A DNA stretch of 64,000 nt, taken from Xiphias gladius (taxonomy: Eukaryota; Chordata; Actinopteri; Istiophoriformes; Xiphiidae). Location of the stretch: NCBI RefSeq assembly GCF_016859285.1, contig NC_053421.1, positions 831,971 to 895,970 of the forward strand, in the 5' to 3' direction. Made by a program: the position numbers and the translations under genes. The notes beneath the pieces are model-generated. The model was not told the origin of the DNA. It ran no database searches and was given only the letters and a program-made list of their open reading frames with translations. Numbering within the stretch: the stretch's first letter is position 1; every line of letters starts with the position of its first letter. Below are positions 1 to 12,199 of this stretch, piece after piece.

Positions 1-1731
1 GATCATAAAGAATACTAAGGTCAAATTGTCCCAAAGCACCAAAAATAGTAAATTAGAAAAAAAAAAATCAAAATTTTTCATATTTTATTTGTTCAGTTTA
101 TTATTCTTTTAAGTTTTCTGTGTTTCTTTTCCCAACATGAAGGCCTAAATGCTGTTTCAAAGCCTTTTCCATGTTGCCAGGAACACAATTCTGGAGGGAA
201 ACACTGAACAGTTTATCTATTTCTTGGCTTAAAAGAAGTCCAATTTAAATATGTTTAAGTTTGATAAATTGTAGAATGGACATTCCTGAAGCTGTGGTTG
301 TTCTATCAGAGGTGGGGATTGGGGGGCTCTGCCTGCAGGACCAATCCTGGACCCCCCAAAAATGCAGTGGTAAAGTGAACTTTTTTAAATGACGTGGCCA
401 TATAATTTTTCATTCACTTTCCTAAAATGTGTGAAACACCACCCCTCTGTTTTATAACCATTGTTAAATGTCAGTCAATGTGTGTGGTCAAAACGATATT
501 AGCTACATAGTGGTGATGGAGTTCTGTATACAGACAAACAGCGGGGACAGAGCCTGCGTAAACTAGGATTTGTGCAGTGTTTCATTGATTGATTGTTCAC
601 CTGTGTAGAAGGTCTGCTAGTTGCTTTTGAGAGTTACTTCATCCTTGTTTCATTTGTTGGCTGAGCTGTACTAAAAGTAAGTAGGTTGCAGAAACTATAA
701 TATTTTAGGGTCTTGTAAGCTATTTTGTATGCTACGCATAAAGAGATGAGTGTGAAAATCATGAATTTGATGCAAGCATTGATATTTTTGATGTGAATAT
801 AAATGTTTAGATGTGTGATTATTTTTAGTGTGCAATCTTGCAGTATTCAATAGCCTACTGACCTGTACCTTTATGAGAGTATAAGCTTTGTAGCACTGTA
901 CTTTATATATTTCTGCCATATGTTAAGAAAATACATTGGAAATGTGTCATGTATCTAAAGTCACTTATCTATGATATGTTTCTTTTTGATGTGAACATAA
1001 ATCTGTCTTAAAGTATACTGATTTAATATTGTGTGGTTTGTCGTACATCACAATAGAATGATAGTATAAATTTGTCTTTGTTAACTTTGCTGGTAAAATG
1101 ACATATTATCGTACTTTACACTTTATTTATTTAGGTGACCTGTCTGACTTGGCATCGGAATCACTCCACTGCTAAAATCAGCGATTAGTTTCATAGTTGA
1201 TTTAACTGGCCCCTATGAAACAAAAGCTGGACCCAGACTGGCCTCACTGTGGTGGGCTAGAACCGTCACTGTCCTCAAGGTTACTACAACTGCCAAATTC
1301 TCAGAAATAGTAACAAGGACATGACCTCAGATCCCCAGTCGTAGGTATGGCCCTGATTGCAACTTCTTAAAGTTACTTAACTTAACTTTGTTAAGTTACT
1401 TGCAAATCCACAGTAAGACACAATTTCAAGTGCCATGTTGGTAGTAGAAGTATACAGTGTACAGGGAGAATTGTTGTGTATAAAATAGTAGTTATGCCCT
1501 TCATTGTTTCATGTGCTTATTAGCGGTTGTATCACAGCAGTTTGGTAACAGTCACATTCTTTGGAGAAACATACTCCAGCCTAACACAGCTATTCCTCAG
1601 TCAAACTTGCACATATAGTATCCCATGCTAACAGTGATGAGTATCTAGCAGTCTCCCCACTGTTTTCCTGTGCCCTCAATTTCCTTATCTTATTCACCAA
1701 TAAAATGAAAAGCAGATCACATCCTCCTCCT
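1..1731. other. AT-rich flank without a recognised gene
   Basis: No open frame here looks like a conserved protein. The stretch lies downstream of the CALHM5-like exon 2, so its right part may include the old 3' UTR of that gene. I see no RNA gene and no clear transposon end. Confidence 0.5.
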
Positions 1732-2115
1732 CTAGCTCATCTCTTTTCCATACTCGAAGTCAATGACAGGTCTCTTCTCTGGTGTGCTGTCCCTGTCTGT
1801 CCTGTCCATGTACCACTGCAGGGTGCTGTAATACTGCTCGCTCCTGGAAAAGGTGTAGTGTGCAGAGATCTCCTCCCATGCCTTATGGTTGGGGAAAGGA
1901 AATGGATGAGGGTCCTTATTCTCAAAGGTGCTCTGCAGGTTTCTCTTGGCCAGCTTGGTTTCATAGTTCACAGCAAAGGTGTCAAAATGCTCCTTCTCCA
2001 CATAGCTTTCGAAAATGTGAGCTGCAGGTAGCTGACTTTGGGAGCAACAGTTTTTGTAGCAGGTACTCAGGAGGCCAACGATGGCAGAGATAATGATAAT
2101 ACAACAGCCCAGGAT
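1732..2115 (-). pseudogene. calhm5: CALHM5-like exon 2, open frame of a decayed gene
   Basis: This is the C-terminal half of a calcium homeostasis modulator (CALHM) channel. The exon opens after a good acceptor (TGTCTGCAG, cut before 2115) and runs 127 codons to a TAG at 1732-1734. It starts with 'ILGCC', the place where CALHM exon 2 normally resumes. A hydrophobic fourth transmembrane segment (about residues 1-20) follows, then a Cys-rich juxtamembrane stretch and the cytoplasmic helical domain with family motifs 'LAKRNLQSTFENKDPHPFP' and 'EQYYSTLQWYMDR'. Resemblance is closest to CALHM5. The frame is undamaged, unlike exon 1 about 8 kb upstream on this strand. The ERV lies between the two exons. 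CALHM proteins form large-pore oligomeric channels in the plasma membrane; whether this exon is still expressed cannot be told from sequence. Confidence 0.75.
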
Positions 2116-2769
2116 CTGCAGACATACAGGAACAATATAAACCGATGCTCACTAAACAAACACTATGGAATGACACTTGGCAATGCGTCTATTATATTTA
2201 AATAAATACAGATAATATATAATTCCATATTTAACATCCCCTACACTGATAAGGGTGTTTAAAGGCTGATGTTCATACTTTCACTGAAACTGCCCATAGG
2301 CGTTATTGTGCTATTGGTAATTATATTAAGACTTGACCATTTTTTAAATAGGTAATCCCAAAAACCACTAATCTTAAGTGTTTTTCCAGGACTGTTTTCT
2401 TTCTATGGTGTAGGGCAGTGGGATTTAAAAGATACATCCACAGACAATAATTTTACAAAATAATCTTAACTCAAGGTCCCCTCACTAGCATTTTGTCTGG
2501 AGCTTTTCACTATATCTGTGAGTTTGTAAAATCTGTGGGAAATCAACTCTCTGTATGCGGCAACTAGTGACTGAAAGGCAGCCCATTAAGACTACATGTT
2601 AACCAGCAGTCACTTCCAAATAATTTCCAAGCTGCTGATTTTATAACCATATGACATCGTCTGACAAAATTAGCATACACATAATTTAAAGACAACAGCT
2701 GTCCTTTGATTTCAGCTATATTTATTTGTAAAATTATCATTCAGAGGGAACGTTAAAAACTTATTCACG

Positions 2770-3012
2770 TCTCTGCCAGCCGCTGGGTGGTCAATTTAAT
2801 GAGACACATAGGGAGGTAAGCCTGCGGAGGGAAAGCCCAGCCTTGCACTCGCGGGAGAAAATACTTGCAACTATCTTATACAGAAAGTAGCTAACATTTG
2901 TCCAAAAAGTTACTAGATTGTCTCAAAGTGCTTTGGTAAAGAAAAGTCACTAAAAATATGTTAAAAGTTGTTAAATCTAGTGAAAAAGGCGTTAAGTTGG
3001 CAACACTGCCTG
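2770..3012 (-). repeat. Candidate non-autonomous DNA repeat ending in CAGTGTTGCCAAC
   Basis: On the minus strand a block begins 'CAGTGTTGCCAACTTAACGC' near 3008. It continues with the pyrimidine-rich pattern (TAGATTTAACAACTTTTA, TAGTGACTTTTC) that I associate with a dispersed animal repeat of this start sequence. The other end, near 2775, is uncertain and I could not confirm inverted termini. It abuts the truncated end of the ERV, which may explain the missing 3' LTR. Confidence 0.3.
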
Positions 3013-3156
3013 TAAACACCCCCCAGATAATGCAATAGAAACTGTTTGCACCAACTGATTTTGAAAGAGCCAATGCTGGAAACTCCAACACTTAGTCATG
3101 TGGATTTGTGGTGATAAAGCATACTTATTTCCGCCATATGGATGGACCGGATGCTG

Positions 3157-5557
3157 TTACATGGCAAGATTAAAGCTTCCATATGAAGTTTTGGCGGTCC
3201 AGAAGGGACAAGCACCTGATGTCACACCTATAGTCACATTTGCAGGCAAAGTTTGGTTCTTTACCATCAAAATTTTACTCTGTTTGCGGTGTGGTGTATG
3301 AAAGGTCACTGTATACAAACCATCAACAGTCTTGTGTTCACGCCCATCAAATTGTATCATATATTTATCACAGTCTGCTATTCCCGTAAACATACCAGGG
3401 CCATTAGTTGTTTCATTCGAACAAAAACAGTCTTCAGTCTTTACAGGTGTCGCTTCCTGTCCATCAGGAACTGCTGTTGTCACATCCTCATGTTTGTCGA
3501 GTAAATTTAAATATGGCAAGTTTCTCAACCAAGAGCAGTCAAATTTGGGTCTAAACAGATGTACTGATAAAGCCATAACTCTATCTTCTCTTGACATCTG
3601 CTGATACAACAGCCATGATAGTGCATAAGATTGACACTTAGGAAGCAGCGGTTCTTGTACTGTCTCCATAATTGCAGGCCATGTGCCTGGTGGTGAAATT
3701 ATCACCACACATGGGCAATTCATGTCCTTAACCGATCTTACGGAATGAATCAACTGTTGAAACCGCAAATTTCTACCTGCCCATGGGTCTGAAATTTGTA
3801 ACACAGAGGAGTCAAATCCATATGCTTTCCACGTAGTTTCTCTGTTCTGTAATGCTCGATAGGATTCAGTCATGTCGTCTGGTGTCCGGTCAAGGTCAGT
3901 CCTCTGAGTTGTTACAGACGAGTTTACATCAGTGTTGTCCACTATTGGTTCCCGAATTCCAGATCTCTTACTACTACTGTTCAAGCTAACCTCTATTCGC
4001 AACATAGGCTTTTGAGTCCCATTAACAAATTCCTCAGGTGCCAAAAGTGCCATAACAGGCGTCTGTGTCCTGTTTACGAGTTCAGTCAATGTTTTATTTG
4101 TGGCTGCCCCTGTCCCAACTTTACTTGTAGAATTTCCCAAAATAACAGACGTTTGAGTTGCCACCACTATTTATCCCCTTCTGAGTCGTAACTAAAGTAA
4201 CAACCAGAGTTTTCATCTTGAGACTCTTACTCACTTCTGGAACTAAAGTAGTATGTATCACCTGTTTGCTATATATCCCCTTTGTAGTTGGTGTGGTGAG
4301 TTGCTTCTGAACTTTTCTAACAAATGTGGATACTTGAACAGGAATAAAACTTATTAACACAAGTGTCACTTTGCGAGTTACATATCCCTCTATCCAATAG
4401 TTTCAAAATGATACAAATTTTAAGTGTGGTTCATAATAAGTACATGTATATTCCCCTTGATCTTCCCATATAGCATTTCTCAAGACAAGCAAGCAATCAC
4501 CCTCTATTTTCATCCACTTCATGTCATTGTACAATACATACTTCCTTCGATCATGAGGCACAATGTCGACATCAGGTCCTATTAACACTATGTCTTCATT
4601 GTGACTATTTTTCCACTTAGGAGGATTATTGCCTCCAACGTTCCATTTACCACATTGATATGGAAGATGAGTCACACTGCCTAAATTTACCCTAATCACA
4701 GAGTTCGAAGAAGTTGGTGTCGGTGAAGTCATCCGAAGTGCAACTGTTAAGAGCGATGCATTTGTACTTTCAGTAAACTTCAGAACTGGAGGGAGAGGTT
4801 TCTGTTCCTTTTTCCCAGTTTCCGGCCGGAACGTTGACATTGTAGTTGTTAATTCTCCTACCTCTTTAACAACTTGAAGTTGTGTGGTCTTACTTGCATT
4901 TATTACTACTAAAGTCACTATCCTAGTTCTAAACCCTGTCTCTGACCCCTCACTCTGAACTTGTGAATCATAATAAGAACACCTATAATCACCTTGATCC
5001 TCTCGCTGAAGCCCTCGTACATAAAGGCTACAGTCACCTTCAATCTTTATTCTCCTCTGATCATTAATTAACACATACTTCCCTACTGGTGATGCTCCCA
5101 ACAGATCAAGAACCTTGCCATGGTTATCTTCCCACTGAACTCTGAATTTCCCTTCGCCAGTAATCTCTCTTGTACAATGACATGGGAGCTGAACTGACTT
5201 TCCCAAAGGCACTTCAACCCTAGTTCTCGTAATGTCTTGGTATGACCCTTTTCCGAACTGGCCTTGGACTCCTTCGTCTGACTGAATCCCTGGATTCCCC
5301 TGAAGCGGTCTCACAGCCCTCTGGTGTCTTTGATGCATCATGCCCCACAGAAATGGGTTCTGCTGTTTCTGGGACATATTGGAAATCAATGTCATCAAAT
5401 TTTCTTTCCTGTTCATTGACTGCAAAGTCATCCCTGGCATCATCAGAAGTGTACTCAAGGTCATCACCATTGTCCCCAAAATGGACAATCTCCACCTCAG
5501 GCCCTTCAGCCTGGAGGTCTTCATGGACCTCTGCTCCTTCTGCATGTCGTTCCACAT
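3157..5557 (-). pseudogene. ERV env-position ORF with two Ig V-like domains, broken
   Basis: The frame opens at 5557, overlapping the end of pol in another frame. It has a hydrophobic, signal-like stretch near residues 24-45. Two related Ig V-like domains follow. The first (about 5222-4900) has a B-strand 'VQLPC', a core Trp, and the F-strand 'EDQGDYRCSYYD'. The second (about 4700-4360) has 'THLPYQC', a core Trp and 'EDQGEYTCTYYE'. Both carry 'KIEGDC' just before the F strand. A single stop at 4403-4405 falls before the G strand of domain 2, after which the same frame continues to 4121. A frameshift near 4170 then leads to 4167-3157, a region with about eight N-glycosylation sequons, several Cys and a TAA at 3155-3157. 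No transmembrane subunit with fusion peptide and heptad repeats is visible. Ig folds are not usual in retroviral surface proteins. A separate accessory gene fused by position is the alternative. Confidence 0.65.
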
Positions 5558-5843
5558 TTTCTTCCGGCTTTCTTAAGCCTTCAATATTTCTGCTTTGTTA
5601 GCACGGCGCCTCTTCTCTAGGCGCTTTGACACAATGCAATAAATTATACCACGTCGGAGATCCTTTAACCTGGACCGCAGTTCCAGTACTGTGAACAACT
5701 TCAAACGGTCCTTCATGTCGTTCGTTAAACCACTTCCTTCTAAACACCTTCACGAACACGTTGTCTCCAGGTTGTGTTCCTCTTTTGCTCATCAAGCCTC
5801 TCTTGCACTTCTTCCTAGGTTGCCTCGACCTCTTCCTCTCCAT
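5223..5843 (-). pseudogene. ERV pol remnant: integrase C-terminal domain and acidic tail
   Basis: The 5598-5843 frame carries the retroviral integrase C-terminal signature: 'GDNVFVKVFRRKW', a 'GPFEVV' turn, 'TAVQVKG' and a 'TWYNLLHCVKAP' end. A TAA at 5598-5600 interrupts it. The same frame then reopens (5555-5220) as a very acidic tail that finishes in a basic 'RRRSPRPVRKR' run, typical of the C-terminal ends of retroelement pol proteins. The env-position frame overlaps this tail by about 300 bases. Protease, RT, RNase H and the integrase catalytic core are missing, so no integration or replication function remains. Confidence 0.7.
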
Positions 5844-7678
5844 ATCTGTGGTTGACCAAATACAGGTTGTGGGCAGGAAGCAATGGGAGCAACAGATGAC
5901 GGCTGGGCTGGTTGAAACTGGATCTGATCCGGCGGCAGTTGTGGTGATGGTTGATTTAGTGGAGGTTGATTCTGAATAACCAAAGCCTGCTTCTTTTCTT
6001 TCTTCTTATTATCCACCAGCTGTATTTGATTAAGTTCTCTGAGAGTCTCCTGGTCCTGTTCTTTCTGGTCATGCTCCTTCTTCCGATATAGCTCCACTTG
6101 ATGTGCTATATGATCCGTGTAGACACCCTTTGCCATGCTTCCAACACCAACCACCTCTGCAATTTGCTCCTCACTGGTACGGGCAACCCCTTCTGTATTT
6201 TCACTCGCAAAATTGATTGCTCCATCTGATTCAAATCCAGGTCATTTCCTGTGACATTTCTCCATACTTGATGGGCCCTTGACACATAAGCCCTTGGATT
6301 CTCTTCCTGTCCGAGTGGTTCAATAAGGATATTATCAGGATGTACATTTGTTGGAAATGTATCTCTCAGTGCTCTCCAAATACGACCTCTATTTGCAGCA
6401 AACAACCTGGATCATTCACAGAAGTTCCCACATATCGATTTAGTCCTGCTTTCTGTAAAATCTCTTCCATACCTTGGACTCCAATGAGGTTAGCCAAAAG
6501 TCTCTTAATATCTCCTATGGCACACTTGTGTTCCCACCATAATCTCTTCTAACTTTTAAATCCAAGGATGCACTCCATCTTGAAGAGTAGGTAACTTCTC
6601 AAGTATGTCTGACATATCTGTATTCTGCCAGGGTTTATACTCCAGATTCTGTCCTCGAATAACCACTGGACACATCTTATCTGGTGACTTTCCCCTTCTT
6701 GGGCGTAATGAATATTTCATAGTGTCTGACTTTTTAAAGTCTTTCTTCCGTAATTCTTTCTTAGCTATCTGCAATTCCTGTAATTGATTCTCCAGTGCTT
6801 CCCGATTTTCTAGACTGGTAGAATTGTTTATGTCAATAAGACATTGATCGATATGTTCCTCAACCTCTCTTAAGGTCTGCCATCTGTCTTCTCCATATCT
6901 GGTACTGGATGCCCTTGGGAAAAACCCTGTTAAAAACGATGGACCCTTGCTCTCCGAGTCTCCATCACTGTTTCCATTCTCACTTTCATTGGAGCTGTCA
7001 TCTCCTCGGTCCTTTTTCCTCCGTGTTTTGACTCCTCTTCTCTCAGCTTTAGCAGGTATCCGTCTGACTGCTGGGTCATATCCACCCATATTTTCATCCA
7101 AATCACTCTGATCATCATTTCCAATTTCCATCATCTTGATCCTTATTCCCCCCTTAGTTTCCAAACGAGCCGTTTTCTTTTTACTTTTGGTGTTTGGATA
7201 CATCTTTATGGTTGTTTCCGCTCTTCCTGTTTCTATTATTCGCTCATTCTCATCTGTAATGTGATAGTTACCCTCCTGACTAATCACTGGAAGTTGGGGA
7301 TAAATCTCCTCAAACTTCACCTCCTTCTCATAAGGTGAGGGTTTCTTTATTGGGGCCGTATGTGAGAGTGGTGTATTAGTTTCTGCCATTCATTTTTCTA
7401 TTTCCTTTTCATTCTTCTCTATTTCTTCTGCGCCTTTCTCCCTCTTATCTTTTGTGGCTTCCAATAATTTCTGTCCCTCATTTTCAAATAACTGGAGAAT
7501 GCCAAGCTCTTGTTTGACTTTTTTCTTTGCGTTTTTATCCCTTCTTACCTTTCTTCTGATCCGCCTTATATGTGGATATAAGCACCTGCATTGTTTTAAT
7601 TACATCTGGGTTGAGTGTCCCTTCCACTTGCCAAGGTTGGTCGATTTCAAGCCAACGCTTATGCCACTTTTCTGACAT
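5792..7678 (-). pseudogene. ERV gag remnant (matrix and capsid regions), frameshifted
   Basis: A start at 7678 ('MSEKWHKRWLEIDQPW') opens a matrix-like segment with a frameshift near 7540. The longest open piece (7389-6556) is a polar linker leading to the capsid start ('CPVVIRGQNLEYKPW', then 'LPTLQDGVHPWI'). A shift after 6556 moves capsid to the next frame, seen again at 6405-6106 ('NPRAYVSRAHQVWRNVTG'). A second shift near 6150 leads to a Gln/Pro-rich tail ending in 'GRGRGNLGRSAREA' at 5792. A zinc-knuckle nucleocapsid is not present; the sequence jumps to the integrase tail instead. The pattern fits gamma-like retroviral Gag. Confidence 0.7.
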
Positions 7679-8122
7679 TTTTTCTACACCTTTAATAAGG
7701 GGATTACTCTTCCCTAGGCGCTAAATGAGTGATTGCTTTCGAAGTATTAGGGTCCTTTGTAATATGTGGGGGCATTGTAATAGCGTCCTTTATAGTCCCT
7801 TATTATAAATCAAATCAAATTTTTTAAAGTTTATTTAGGTTATTCCTCTCTTCAGTTTCCTATTTAAAGTAATTATAAACCACTATATTGCCACAATCAG
7901 TAACAAAAAGTGAAATAAATTTGCCAACTTCAGAGCATCAAAAGTCTTATTTTAATTTATTTCATTCTAATAATATCTTAAATCTCCAAGTTATTCTACT
8001 TTAAATAGACTCACATGTCTTTAAAGACTGTCCATTTACTCTAAGCTCCAGTTCGTCAGTTTTTTCTTTTTTTTCCCCCCAGTCTCTAACCAAGAGGGAA
8101 GGGAGGGTGCAGCGCTCTCCCA

Positions 8123-8164
<42 letters not shown>

Positions 8165-9620
8165 GAGAGACAAAGAGTAAAAACAGAGAAAAACTACACG
8201 CTCATCAATCAATTAATCGATCCCTCATCAAAACCAAAATACGTGTTTTAGTATTGGTAATTTTATCAGAAGGTTATCTTTCCCTTCCTATCTTATTTCT
8301 TGCACATTCTTGTGCACACAAAACATCCTCACTGTTCTCCCTACTTTTTTCACAATAAAAATGTTCTTCTCAAGGGCTCATATATGTAATTGTAACAATT
8401 TTAGTCCCCTTAAAGACTCATAGGTCATTAGTTTCAAACGTCCTTTCAAAGAGGCTCATGATTTTTATCAAAACTTCCCCCTGAAAGAGGCTTATATATA
8501 TTTAACATTAAAAAGCAAACATATCTTGCCTTATGAATCAATAAACCACTTATTCTCAACCACAACCTATGTGTGACTGTCGCACATGAACCTTCCACAA
8601 GAAGTCACACGCAGCTGAAACACCACTGACACACCACGCAGCAGACACACACACACACACAGATCAATCATTGAGCAAACAAAGACACAGAGCAGATTAC
8701 ACCAAACAGAAGCTCACAACGAACTCAATCATCATCCCAAATTTCTCAAAGTTAACTCATTCATACTTTTCCGTACTAAATGCGCATTTTTGCCGCTCAC
8801 GTTTCTCTTTTTTCCCAACTTTATGCTACCTTAATGAGATGCAGACATTTCAATGAGAGGCTGCTTCAGACATTGTTCGTCAACAAATGTTCGAGTGGGA
8901 GCTTACAATTGAGTTTTCTAATTCTGCACCTCCAGTTCTTAGAACTGACCTGAGACATCCCCTAGTGACATCCCAGGTTTTATGGCCCGTCTAACACCGC
9001 CTTCCTAAGGGGTTCATCCGAATCTGCGGCTTAACCTCTATATTTCCTCTTTTTTCCTTTACATTACCTCTTTTACCATGTTACTTTTACTTTATTTAAT
9101 TTCTCCTAATTCCTCCGGACCCGGAGTTATGTTTCTAATTTCCAGTAAAATTCCACTATTCTTTAAAAGCCAACTTTCACGCAGCGGATAGTACGCATGT
9201 CTTACCGTTAAGGAAGATAAGGGCCCTGTCTTCATTAATCTCGCATGGCGTTTATTTAGCACACTTTACCTCTACTAATTAGGCTATTCTACCGTTTCCT
9301 ACTTTAACTTCTTATTGTCTTTTTATGTCTTTCCTTCTTTAACTTCTTATTTTCTTTACGTCTCTACTACACTACTCCCCCCTTTTTCGTCACCCTAGCA
9401 GCGCAACAAAACGAAAATTAGAACGGAGCACCGAACCAAACATAAACACATCATGAGAGGCACACACAAACGATTCTTTGCAGTGTGACCAACCAGCAAA
9501 TACAACAGCCTCAACGAACAAAAACCAGCACCCAAGGAACGTGAGGAATGCTCACCTTAACTGCCAGCGTGGAGCGGGAGTCGGAGCGCTGATGCTAGTG
9601 AAGATGCTGCAGGCACAACA
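7679..9620. other. Presumed ERV leader, AT-rich, with short microsatellites
   Basis: Nearly 2 kb between the putative primer-binding site and gag shows no conserved frame. It has a (CT)n/(CA)n run at about 8129-8166 and a short (AC)n at about 8646-8660. This is long for a retroviral leader, so it may contain unrelated insertions or host intron sequence. Confidence 0.4.
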
Positions 9621-9647
9621 CGACCAAGTTCGTGACGCCAAAATTCT

Positions 9648-9985
9648 TGTAGTTTATTAGATGGTGTTGATGATGTGAAGAGGATGAAGGAGACTCCGCT
9701 GACACGCGTCTTGATTGCATATAAAGGTTTATTACAAAGAAGTACAGCGTCAAGTCAAGCATTTGCAGATCTTCTTGTGAGAGGGTGTGAAGGATGAACC
9801 ACTCTGAAAATCAGTCTTGACCGCCGACTCGTAAATAAGGCAGCTGTTTTCCTAAAAACTGTCACTAACGTATGGTTTCATTCACAAAACATAAACTTTC
9901 TTATCCAAACTGTGAGGCACCCTCTGAGGACATTTGACCTAGGGCCTCTATATAAACATAGCTCTGCATATATAAACATACACCC
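9648..9985 (-). repeat. Candidate 5' LTR of the ERV
   Basis: On the minus strand there is a TATA-like 'TTTATATAGAGG' (about 9943-9955), an AATAAA at about 9725-9735 and another close to 9655. A 'TTTGGCGTCACGAACTTGG' primer-binding-site-like sequence follows (9623-9641). This order (TATA, polyadenylation signal, PBS) is what a 5' LTR should show. No matching second LTR is seen, so the edges are guesses and the matching tRNA is not identified. Confidence 0.4.
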
Positions 9986-10231
9986 CACTAAATATAATAT
10001 TATTAATGAGAATGTAATAATTGAAGCAGTGCATATTGAGCAGGATCATGGGGCCAGTATGTGGTTTGCAGTTACAGATCAAGACTGCAGCACTAGGGGC
10101 AGAAATACCTGCAGAAAGCAAAAGGAGGAGGGAGGAGAGATGCGAGAAAGCACAAAACTAGGGGAGAGAGAAGTCAAGTTACTAACAAGCATTGATGGGA
10201 TATTAGTGTATATGGACTGGATACAGTTTGG
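9985..10231 (-). mobile_element. 3' end fragment of the LINE family seen at 14.6 and 47.5 kb
   Basis: On the minus strand this segment follows the 3' part of the LINE at about 17213-17465. Shared blocks include 'CATCAATGCTTGTTAGTAAC' versus the same with a few changes, 'CCTAGTTTTGTGCTTTCTC', 'CTGCAGGTATTTCTGCCCC' and the AT-rich tail 'AATTATTA...TTATATTTAGT'. It begins inside the CALHM5-like exon 1 and truncates it. It lacks the 27-base segment found in the 14.6-kb copy at 17263-17289. Confidence 0.75.
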
Positions 10232-10730
10232 ACCACTCACAGGGCACTCAGGCCAGCTCCTCCCGACACTTCAAGGTCTCGTTTTTACAGAACAGATCCA
10301 CCACCAGGTATCAATGAGACCACTGATGGCACAATAATAAAAGGTCCCATTGAGCAGGGCCACAGAGAGCCACATTATAGGAGCCACACAAGCACCAGTG
10401 AAGATGCTAATGAACACCCTGAGGCAGTCGAAGCAGTTCCCCCATGGGCAAAGCTTCATAGGATTGAGGCAGCAGCCAGTATAGAACTTCCACAAACGGG
10501 TGCTGAAGAACAGACCAAAAACCATTAGCACTGCAGCAAAGGAAGGAAAGTCAGCCCAGCAGGGGAAGTCAGCCCATATGCGAAGTTCTTGTTGTGGTTG
10601 CAGTGGGGCACTGAAAGGAGACCATGGAGAAGACTTGCTTCCCGCCTATAGTCAGGAGAGCCATGAAACTGTAGCCAATGGTGGCTTTCTGGTTCATGAC
10701 GAAATGCAGGACAGTCTGGAAGTCATCCAC
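10232..10730 (-). pseudogene. calhm5: CALHM5-like exon 1, broken by frameshifts, a stop and a LINE insertion
   Basis: Reading down from 10730, the translation matches the CALHM5 N-terminus ('DDFQTVLHFVMNQKATIGYS', then 'FMALLTIGGKQVFS'). The usual initiator Met is a GTG valine codon at 10728-10730. The frame shifts just after the conserved 'CP' of the C-P-C motif (about 10606). An 18-bp tandem duplication ('GGGCTGACTT...') sits at about 10545-10585. The third transmembrane region ('VAPIMWLSVALLNGTFYYC') is readable in the 10271-10531 frame. Another shift follows near 10310, then an in-frame TGA near 10236 just before the expected late Cys. Homology stops at about 10231, where a LINE 3' end begins, so the last 20-25 codons and the donor site are missing. 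Assembly error could explain one shift but hardly all of these lesions. Confidence 0.8.
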
Positions 10731-12199
10731 AGTGTCAGTGGGGACCTGCTCTACAAGAAATTAACCCCAAGTGAAAGACAACAACAAGGAGTGAAAAGTG
10801 AAAAAGCTGAGTGTCTTTAAAGCCTGCAGTCATTCCCTAGTCATTGTTTCACAGCTGTAGACAAAACACAACTGCCAAGCCTGCCTCAAACCCGCCCTTC
10901 GGCTGATTCTCTTCAGGCTCTTCCTTCAGACAGTAAGATGCTCCCTCGCACCCACTACCTCTTTATTCACCAAATGTACTCTTCTCCAAAGGAGAGTCCC
11001 TGCTGTGCTGCCACTAAAAGGAAAGGTAAAGCCCCAGTGGTAAAAAGTTACATCCTCATGCCCCTTCCCTTTTTTGTTCACATTTACATGCCTCTTTATA
11101 TGTTTGTCTTTCCTGCTCTGACAGTTTTGAGGTACTCATGAGGAAAAATACTGCTGGTCTGGTTTGATCACCAGTCTGTTGACAGTGATGTAATCTGGAA
11201 TGCAGTGTGAAACAGAAAACAATAAAACACCAAAGGAACTGAAATAGTGTCATCCTTCCTGTTTCTGTTCACTTTTATGAGAAGCAGTCGTTTCTTTACA
11301 TGAAATAAGTATGGCAACTTGATTTTTTTCTCTTGTCAGCAGCACTTGCATTCAACAATGATGAAATCTACTATTTTTAATGATGAAACGTGCAAAGAGG
11401 AAAGGCATACATACAATAAATCATGCAGAAAGAGAGCTTTCATTCATTCTATTGAAATGTTTCCATAGAGAACAGACCATTGTTGCAGAGACAGAGAGAG
11501 GCAGTCAGAGTGGAGTGGGGAGCTGATCACATCCTCTTGATGATTTTTCTGTTCTCCATTCCCACAAGAGTGACTACTCAGACTACAACACTCTGAGGGC
11601 ATTATACAGTAAGTCATGAAACATCCTCTGCACACAAGAAACATCATTATCTGTTGGCACTAACACAATCACTACAGTTACCAGTTTGCTTTTTTGAATG
11701 AACAATGAAAATGTACAGGGTGTCACATGTTTAAAAGAACTACATTCTTTTCATCACTGTTGCTCATATGCTGAATGTTTGCATGTATGTATGCAGTCGA
11801 CCAGCAGTGCACAGGAAGTGGTAAGCTCTTGCAACCAATGTATGAAGGTGACACATTTCCTGTTTAAGCCTACATAGACATGGTATTTGGTGTTCATTTG
11901 GTGTTCATTTGATAGTTCAGCCTGAACAATCAAGGAGCAATTGTACAGCTACGCTAGATTGTCTACTTAATAATTAGGCAAATACAATTTCCTATGAGAG
12001 AAATATATGAGGTGACTCTTTAGACAGTCTTCACCCATACAAAGCACAAGTCTTTCATCTCTCAATGCCCCTTGGCTCTTTTGATAGATTCCTGTGCCAA
12101 ACCTGCATTGTGTGCAATTCACTGATGATCTCAGTACAACTCATATATCAGCAGACTGGTCTAACCCTAACCCAATCCTTTGAAGCTGAAACAAAATCC
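10731..12199. other. Intergenic stretch between the two CALHM genes
   Basis: No conserved coding frame is seen. It should contain the promoter of the CALHM5-like gene (near 10731) and the 3' UTR of the CALHM6-like gene (below 12200). No clear polyadenylation signal or repeat was recognised. Confidence 0.45.

Follow-up and report, generated by a model that had tools for sequence, protein, structure and literature searches.

To our knowledge, retroviral surface subunits (SU) are not normally built from V-set domains of the immunoglobulin (Ig) type. Gamma-type envelope proteins (Env), in the sections of PMC9967133 drawn upon here, have a basic site between SU and the transmembrane subunit (TM), a stretch like an immunosuppressive domain (ISD) and a class I fusion TM, and those sections mention no Ig domain. 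The Env of foamy viruses, according to the available part of PMC7828637, has a membrane-anchored leader peptide that is cut by furin-like proteases and is present on particles, with the order N-terminal basic stretch, hydrophobic segment, outer part of about 40 residues, basic site, SU, basic site and TM. In CrocERV31 (PMC4299795, in the portion used), the env position encodes three Ig domains of a captured nectin3, the host gene having replaced env while remaining about 76% identical to its donor. XtERV-S of frogs (PMC8278194) places a class I-like TM with CX6CC under an SU of unknown kinship with CWIC, and the accessible portion of that text has 0 occurrences of immunoglobulin or Ig-like. 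Finally, Ig proteins of large DNA viruses (poxvirus hemagglutinin, iridovirus, herpesvirus) are V-like surface proteins by structure match. Here we describe an endogenous retrovirus (ERV) in a window of 64,000 nucleotides from Xiphias gladius (GCF_016859285.1, contig NC_053421.1, positions 831,971 to 895,970 of the forward strand; coordinates below are those of the window), whose env-position open reading frame (ORF) belongs to a family of retroviral Env with V-set domains. Most likely for attachment, this Env lineage probably bears an outermost, leader-like module of two IgV domains and a stalk.

The family touches each of the above systems at a different point. Like gamma-type Env, it has the basic site between SU and TM, the ISD-like stretch and a class I fusion TM profile, but C-x9-C stands in place of CX6CC and Ig domains with a stalk precede SU. 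Its succession of parts resembles that of foamy Env, although the outer part reaches about 350 residues with Ig, the TM and pol are MLV-like, and cleavage at the site is a proposal; by analogy, the Ig domains and stalk resemble an occupant of the outer part of a foamy-like leader. Whereas CrocERV31 lost env to its host gene, the Ig domains here are fused ahead of SU/TM and a donor was not found. With XtERV-S, the likeness lies in a class I-like TM under an unplaced SU, and with the DNA-virus proteins in fold only, since those are separate membrane proteins and not parts of a fusion protein. None of the 50 viral-library fold matches listed was named retroviral; many are nameless, so this is not evidence of absence.

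The V-set assignment of the ORF (5557..4403, minus strand) comes from Pfam, which matches it in two stretches with 56.2 bits (E 4.6e-15), far above the cut-off of 26, bearing out the original prediction of two tandem Ig V-like domains. These domains, Ig1 and Ig2, share 36% identity across 98 aligned columns (E 3e-19 as a single comparison). Each had been credited with a B-strand Cys; this holds for Ig1, which has the canonical B-F Cys pair and the core Trp, likewise present in 11 of 11 aligned relatives' domains, and not for Ig2, where Tyr replaces the canonical Cys (LPYQC) and only the second Cys of the family C-x-C remains. A four-Cys signature (C-x-C in strand B, D-C before strand E, Cys in strand F) also marks 11 of 11 aligned relatives' domains. 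The IgV fold appears in the AlphaFold model of a relative, P0019, in which 592 of 819 residues fall below pLDDT 50, so no claim on SU or TM folds is drawn from it. Among V-set folds, Foldseek places TIM-3, CAR, nectin-1 and SIRP-alpha nearest to this model, and VIA-align gives NEGR1, antibodies and PD-L1, the latter tied within about one Z unit; the best PDB profile match is JAML (E 8e-13), a likeness at the level of the fold family only. This likeness points to no specific ligand.

The same architecture recurs in public fish proteins. Three protein searches gave 76 distinct relatives, the species names shown being those of fish; proteins of more than about 915 residues were beyond the reach of these searches, and therefore a full-length two-Ig Env could not turn up there. 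The seven species checked are all teleosts (Pleuronectiformes, Characiformes, Salmoniformes, Scombriformes, Sciaenidae, Perciformes and Syngnathiformes), each with an Ig match, weak in Syngnathus (E 0.018). A Pfam scan of 48 relatives, some of whose V-set-negative members are cut at the N-terminus, found V-set at E <= 0.1 in 25 and above the cut-off in 9; the ten more distant relatives among the 48 had no V-set, and two of the partial matches to unrelated families were disregarded as noise. Single proteins of Scomber (P0019, 819 aa) and Nibea (P0027, 832 aa) run through leader, one Ig, Ser/Thr stalk, SU, RxKR and TM, and in 11 relatives the stalk, bounded by a simple rule, is 20–32% Ser/Thr. 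The hydrophobic, signal-like stretch anticipated ahead of the domains lies at 5488-5432 and recurs in proteins of Hippoglossus, Colossoma and Coregonus. An unusual env lineage of fish retroviruses, one of the origins first proposed, is backed by full-length public proteins and by genome copies. NCBIfam assigned 0 families to 9 proteins, a viral contig collection scanned with the Ig ORF, the SU/TM alignment and a gag piece gave no relative, and searches of the open-licence PMC literature listed no title or abstract on Ig domains inside fish retroviral Env.

Within the 690.8-Mb assembly of the window, at least 114 matches were found for the Ig ORF and at least 117 for the SU/TM of relative P0010, both counts being lower bounds and some small contigs looking like mutual duplicates. 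Clustering at 2.5 kb gave 84 clusters: 52, the window copy among them, have both parts on one strand, 16 have Ig only and 16 SU/TM only. The two parts are spaced by 705–719 bp in 25 of the 52. Because 15 matches span the whole ORF (5 of them without an internal stop), two tandem Ig domains are the usual form in this genome. Two loci with SU/TM pieces (L066 and L068), whose TM is only about 50–60% identical to the family and which show no Ig match in the stretches fetched, are possibly further env lineages. Host V-set exons are densely clustered in contigs C24, C15, C357, C358, C360, C361 and others (150 scored matches).

In relatives and other copies, the Ig module forms one fusion with SU and TM, placed after pol and ahead of the 3' long terminal repeat (LTR). 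The motif that opens SU was found in 41 of 78 sequences, directly preceded by a dibasic pair in 35 of the 41 and by Q-N-R in the window copy; in the Ig-less P0056, P0059, P0066 and P0070, the same W-K-P-W motif has a KR or KKR-type basic site a few residues ahead of it. Near the N-terminus, Kyte-Doolittle maxima are 1.17–2.25 in 8 Ig-bearing rows, and 5 of 6 Ig-less rows have a hydrophobic segment (1.89–2.41), the sixth (P0056, 0.96) perhaps missing its start. The best match of the SU/TM alignment to class I GP2 ectodomains has E 3.1e-6, CPC is visible by eye in several SU rows, and an ISD-like pattern (the L-L-K-H-D-M-A-L-D-Y stretch) occurs in 43 of 76 rows, many others being cut short. In TM, aligned rows show C-x9-C and not CX6CC, and an adjacent-Cys pattern matched 5 of 76 (P0032, P0062, P0063, P0064 and P0067). 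The TLV_coat profile (cut-off 22.5) reached 14.0 and 14.2 bits in P0009 and P0010, was not listed for the Ig-bearing proteins scanned and exceeded the cut-off only in the Ig-less P0062 and P0064. Thus, despite its basic site, ISD-like stretch and TM profile, the family is not filed as a gamma-type Env, since it lacks CX6CC and falls short of the TLV_coat cut-off.

Such an Env most likely works as follows. The env gene of this ERV family encodes a single polyprotein that begins with a hydrophobic leader and one IgV domain or two (two in the window), continues through a stalk rich in Ser/Thr, and ends with the SU core and TM. The Ig module is N-terminal of the conserved dibasic site, where Ig-less relatives have only a short leader. 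Displayed on the virion, as we infer, and cut at that site, the module would be the outermost part of the spike, lifted by the stalk. It would bind a host surface molecule and thereby serve attachment or receptor choice, while the fusion job would stay with the SU core and TM; given the rest of this reading, a binding function is an evenly balanced proposition. A bolder version makes Ig1, Ig2 and the stalk a third Env subunit, membrane-anchored and leader-derived, cut from SU at the dibasic site, standing beside the SU/TM trimer and binding a host Ig-superfamily partner. This version is tentative and rather doubtful; if true, the retroviral spike would carry an adhesion arm that is separate and host-like.

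The Ig domains are under constraint. Across 14 copies (L023 being excluded for frame slips), dN/dS is 0.46 for Ig1 (codon bootstrap 0.28–0.81) and 1.19 for the linker (0.73–2.05), and across 12 copies it is 0.49 for the SU core (0.31–0.82; 0.48 without L023). Averaged over pairs, the values are 0.46 for Ig1, 0.54 for Ig2, 0.70 for a shorter leader and 1.16 for the linker; neutral decay after insertion moves such ratios towards 1. In L023, whose genome matches spread over several frames, G-to-A hypermutation was considered as the source of 11 TGA codons and rejected, there being no excess of G-to-A over other changes in comparisons with L012, L011 and L020.

As to the order of events, a midpoint-rooted tree of 50 of the 76 TM regions (28 rows unlabelled) splits 15 Ig-labelled from 7 Ig-less rows by one change in 91% of 200 bootstrap trees (support 82/91). 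Among its labels, P0030 was called Ig by eye where Pfam gave none, P0021 and P0024 start inside Ig, and P0053, without an N-terminus, is identical to P0055 in TM. A tree of 22 Ig domains, their types assigned by eye beforehand and P0046 with its very long branch left out of both groups, splits the two types by one change (100% of 200; support 91/91). In three of eight single-Ig rows (P0019, P0014 and P0072), the first strands are nearest Ig1 (0.78–0.83 vs 0.50–0.61) and the remainder nearest Ig2 (0.64–0.72 vs 0.32–0.34), so these look, from their sequences, like Ig1/Ig2 fusions with a short Ig1-like first part; one other row is a tie and four are nearer Ig2 throughout. A divergent lineage in the same genome, P0077, is about 27% identical to the window ORF and has the order integrase tail, one V-set domain (36.4 bits) and stalk. 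It lies at L059 659-1702 (minus strand), its integrase tail is 63% identical, and a second copy stands in pieces at C3:5294200-5295162. The TM split, the Ig-type split, the fusion-like single domains and P0077, taken together, suggest that Ig was gained long ago, then duplicated, and later reduced to a single domain more than once. We also infer, as originally proposed, that a host gene was captured before this duplication, the duplication being favoured by the identity between the domains and the two types on the tree, while for the capture half no donor came to light.

P0077 may also be read the other way, as a sign that Ig is ancestral to the Env family and was lost in the Ig-less relatives, rather than gained once: a V-set behind an integrase tail in so divergent a lineage makes Ig old, and the TM tree is only midpoint-rooted. 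However, with the outermost clade (P0062, P0064 and P0067; P0062 and P0067 without Ig, P0064 cut short) as outgroup, gain needs fewer steps, the split having moderate support, and an ancestral Ig is distinctly improbable. Descent of the Ig stretch from a host exon close by had been raised along with the original prediction; the rearranged state of the window copy might seem to invite that reading, or one of a chance insertion confined to a single copy. Yet related elements, in this genome and in other fish, carry the same arrangement; the 52 two-part clusters and two flanking gene exons that are CALHM, not Ig, rule out a host-exon origin, and we give such a reading almost no credence.

The main rival of attachment is action on immunity: released through the dibasic site or by signal peptidase, or else displayed by infected cells, the module would serve against host V-set receptors as a decoy or checkpoint mimic. 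TIM-3, SIRP-alpha and PD-L1 are among its nearest folds, the model is also matched by Ig proteins from large DNA viruses that infect fish or other hosts, and the dibasic site precedes SU; against this, long public proteins join the module to SU/TM, and fold similarity gives no ligand. We regard such a role as unlikely. Attachment by a double IgV module remains our preferred reading, and several results weigh against it. Strict R-x-[KR]-R occurs directly before SU in 0 of 41 sequences, so cleavage at the dibasic site is a proposal. Among the 14 copies, dN/dS is 0.56 for Ig2, with an interval touching 1.00 (0.33–1.00), and 0.58 for the leader, with one passing 1 (0.32–1.15), and all these intervals are too narrow because the copies share ancestry. 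The 16 SU/TM clusters have no Ig match nearby, and none was found upstream of the four examined (L064, L066, L067 and L068), which may reflect deletion, decay or real absence. The AlphaFold model of the window Ig1 has pLDDT 47 with no match at E <= 0.001, and is unused as support. A donor search with P0077 gave 85 matches at E <= 1, of which the top-ranking one not at a known env locus has E 0.06, and no donor gene. Lastly, the window copy is itself broken, its env having one stop, one frameshift and an inverted end.

This copy is a broken fish ERV that spans about 9949 to 3101 of the minus strand, with the following parts:

9645..9949, minus strand: partial 5' LTR, about 87% identical to the LTR of the C14 copy
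5795..7389, minus strand: gag region in several broken frames (ORFs 7389-6556, 6411-6106 and 6241-5792), without a Pfam family
5625..5774, minus strand: integrase C-terminal domain (Pfam MLVIN_C, 29.3 bits, barely above the cut-off of 29.2)
5220..5597, minus strand: acidic open frame in register with the integrase tail and overlapping the env start, without a Pfam family
4403..5557, minus strand: env-position ORF of 384 aa with leader, Ig1, linker, Ig2 and TGA end (ORF list, Pfam)
5432..5488, minus strand: hydrophobic leader stretch (Kyte-Doolittle mean 1.54 over 19 residues)
4937..5224, minus strand: Ig V-set domain 1 (Pfam V-set, residues 112-207)
4406..4732, minus strand: Ig V-set domain 2, shortened by the stop and with Tyr at the canonical B-strand Cys (second V-set stretch and tree; boundary by eye)
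3841..4402, minus strand: stalk region with a frameshift between about 4170 and 4124 (ORFs, tblastn)
3226..3840, minus strand: SU core, opening at the E-T-T-W-K-A-Y-G-F-D motif, with relatives 53–67% identical (best-scoring rows)
3101..3250, plus strand: inverted SU end (tblastn frame +2, 60–80% identity in six rows)

The single frame originally read through 3157-5557 is not so: the Ig ORF stops at an in-frame TGA (4405-4403), beyond which its frame extends to about 4124, the SU core lies in a different frame (4170-3226), and the SU end is inverted. The SU end is inverted in situ, and with it the element ends in this window. The integrase C-terminal end is the only recognised part of pol, and the gag piece 7389-6559 is found again upstream of several other copies. 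TM was not found in the window, none of the 164 tblastn rows from the 76 family proteins falling elsewhere in it; nor do the LTR pieces of the C14 copy match anywhere in positions 1-3100, the 3' LTR being absent in the window. Rfam (gathering threshold) and tRNA scans of the window gave 0 matches, and no repeats of >=40 bp occur in positions 1-12000. The ERV is flanked on its own strand by complementary parts of the CALHM profile (profile positions 1-182 at 14436-13783 and 181-251 at 2148-1735), and hence it probably sits in sense in an intron of one CALHM-type gene.

The leader stretch is overlapped by the acidic frame that continues the integrase frame, and so its DNA serves two frames. Within the overlap (5220-5557, minus strand) of acidic pol tail and Met-rich env leader, dN/dS is 0.64 in the env frame and 0.89 in the pol frame; in the 14 copies, the third frame has 10–17 stops each, whereas env has none in 9 and pol none in 3. 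From these stop counts and ratios, both frames seem to have been read, env being the more constrained, and the region is a possible case of long dual coding.

Other copies fill in the family's structure and age. The C8 copy has stretches matching reverse transcriptase, RNase H and the integrase core, MLV-type enzymes coming first among solved structures for its reverse transcriptase (E 2.4e-49, in a library with few retroviruses). In L011, L012, L017, L019, L027 and L037, no more than a few tens of bases separate the end of a gag-ORF-like piece from the integrase tail, for which reason these six seem to have in common a single deletion that removed most of gag and pol with env kept, possibly as a non-autonomous, env-keeping subfamily; L034 and L038 have a different joint, from gag to Ig1. 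The C14 copy, too, is without most of gag and pol and presumably moved in trans. Its LTRs differ at 3 positions in 365 bp (99.2% identical), which, at the fish substitution rate of 1.46e-8 quoted in the part of PMC8672886 used here, puts this one insertion at about 0.28 million years.

If the preferred reading is true, retroviruses can gain host-like recognition modules while keeping their fusion machinery. The fish lineage with IgV in Env is widespread, one of its copies being only about 0.3 million years old by its LTR pair, and its natural series of no Ig, one Ig and two Ig offers a means of studying how such a module affects host use and immunity.
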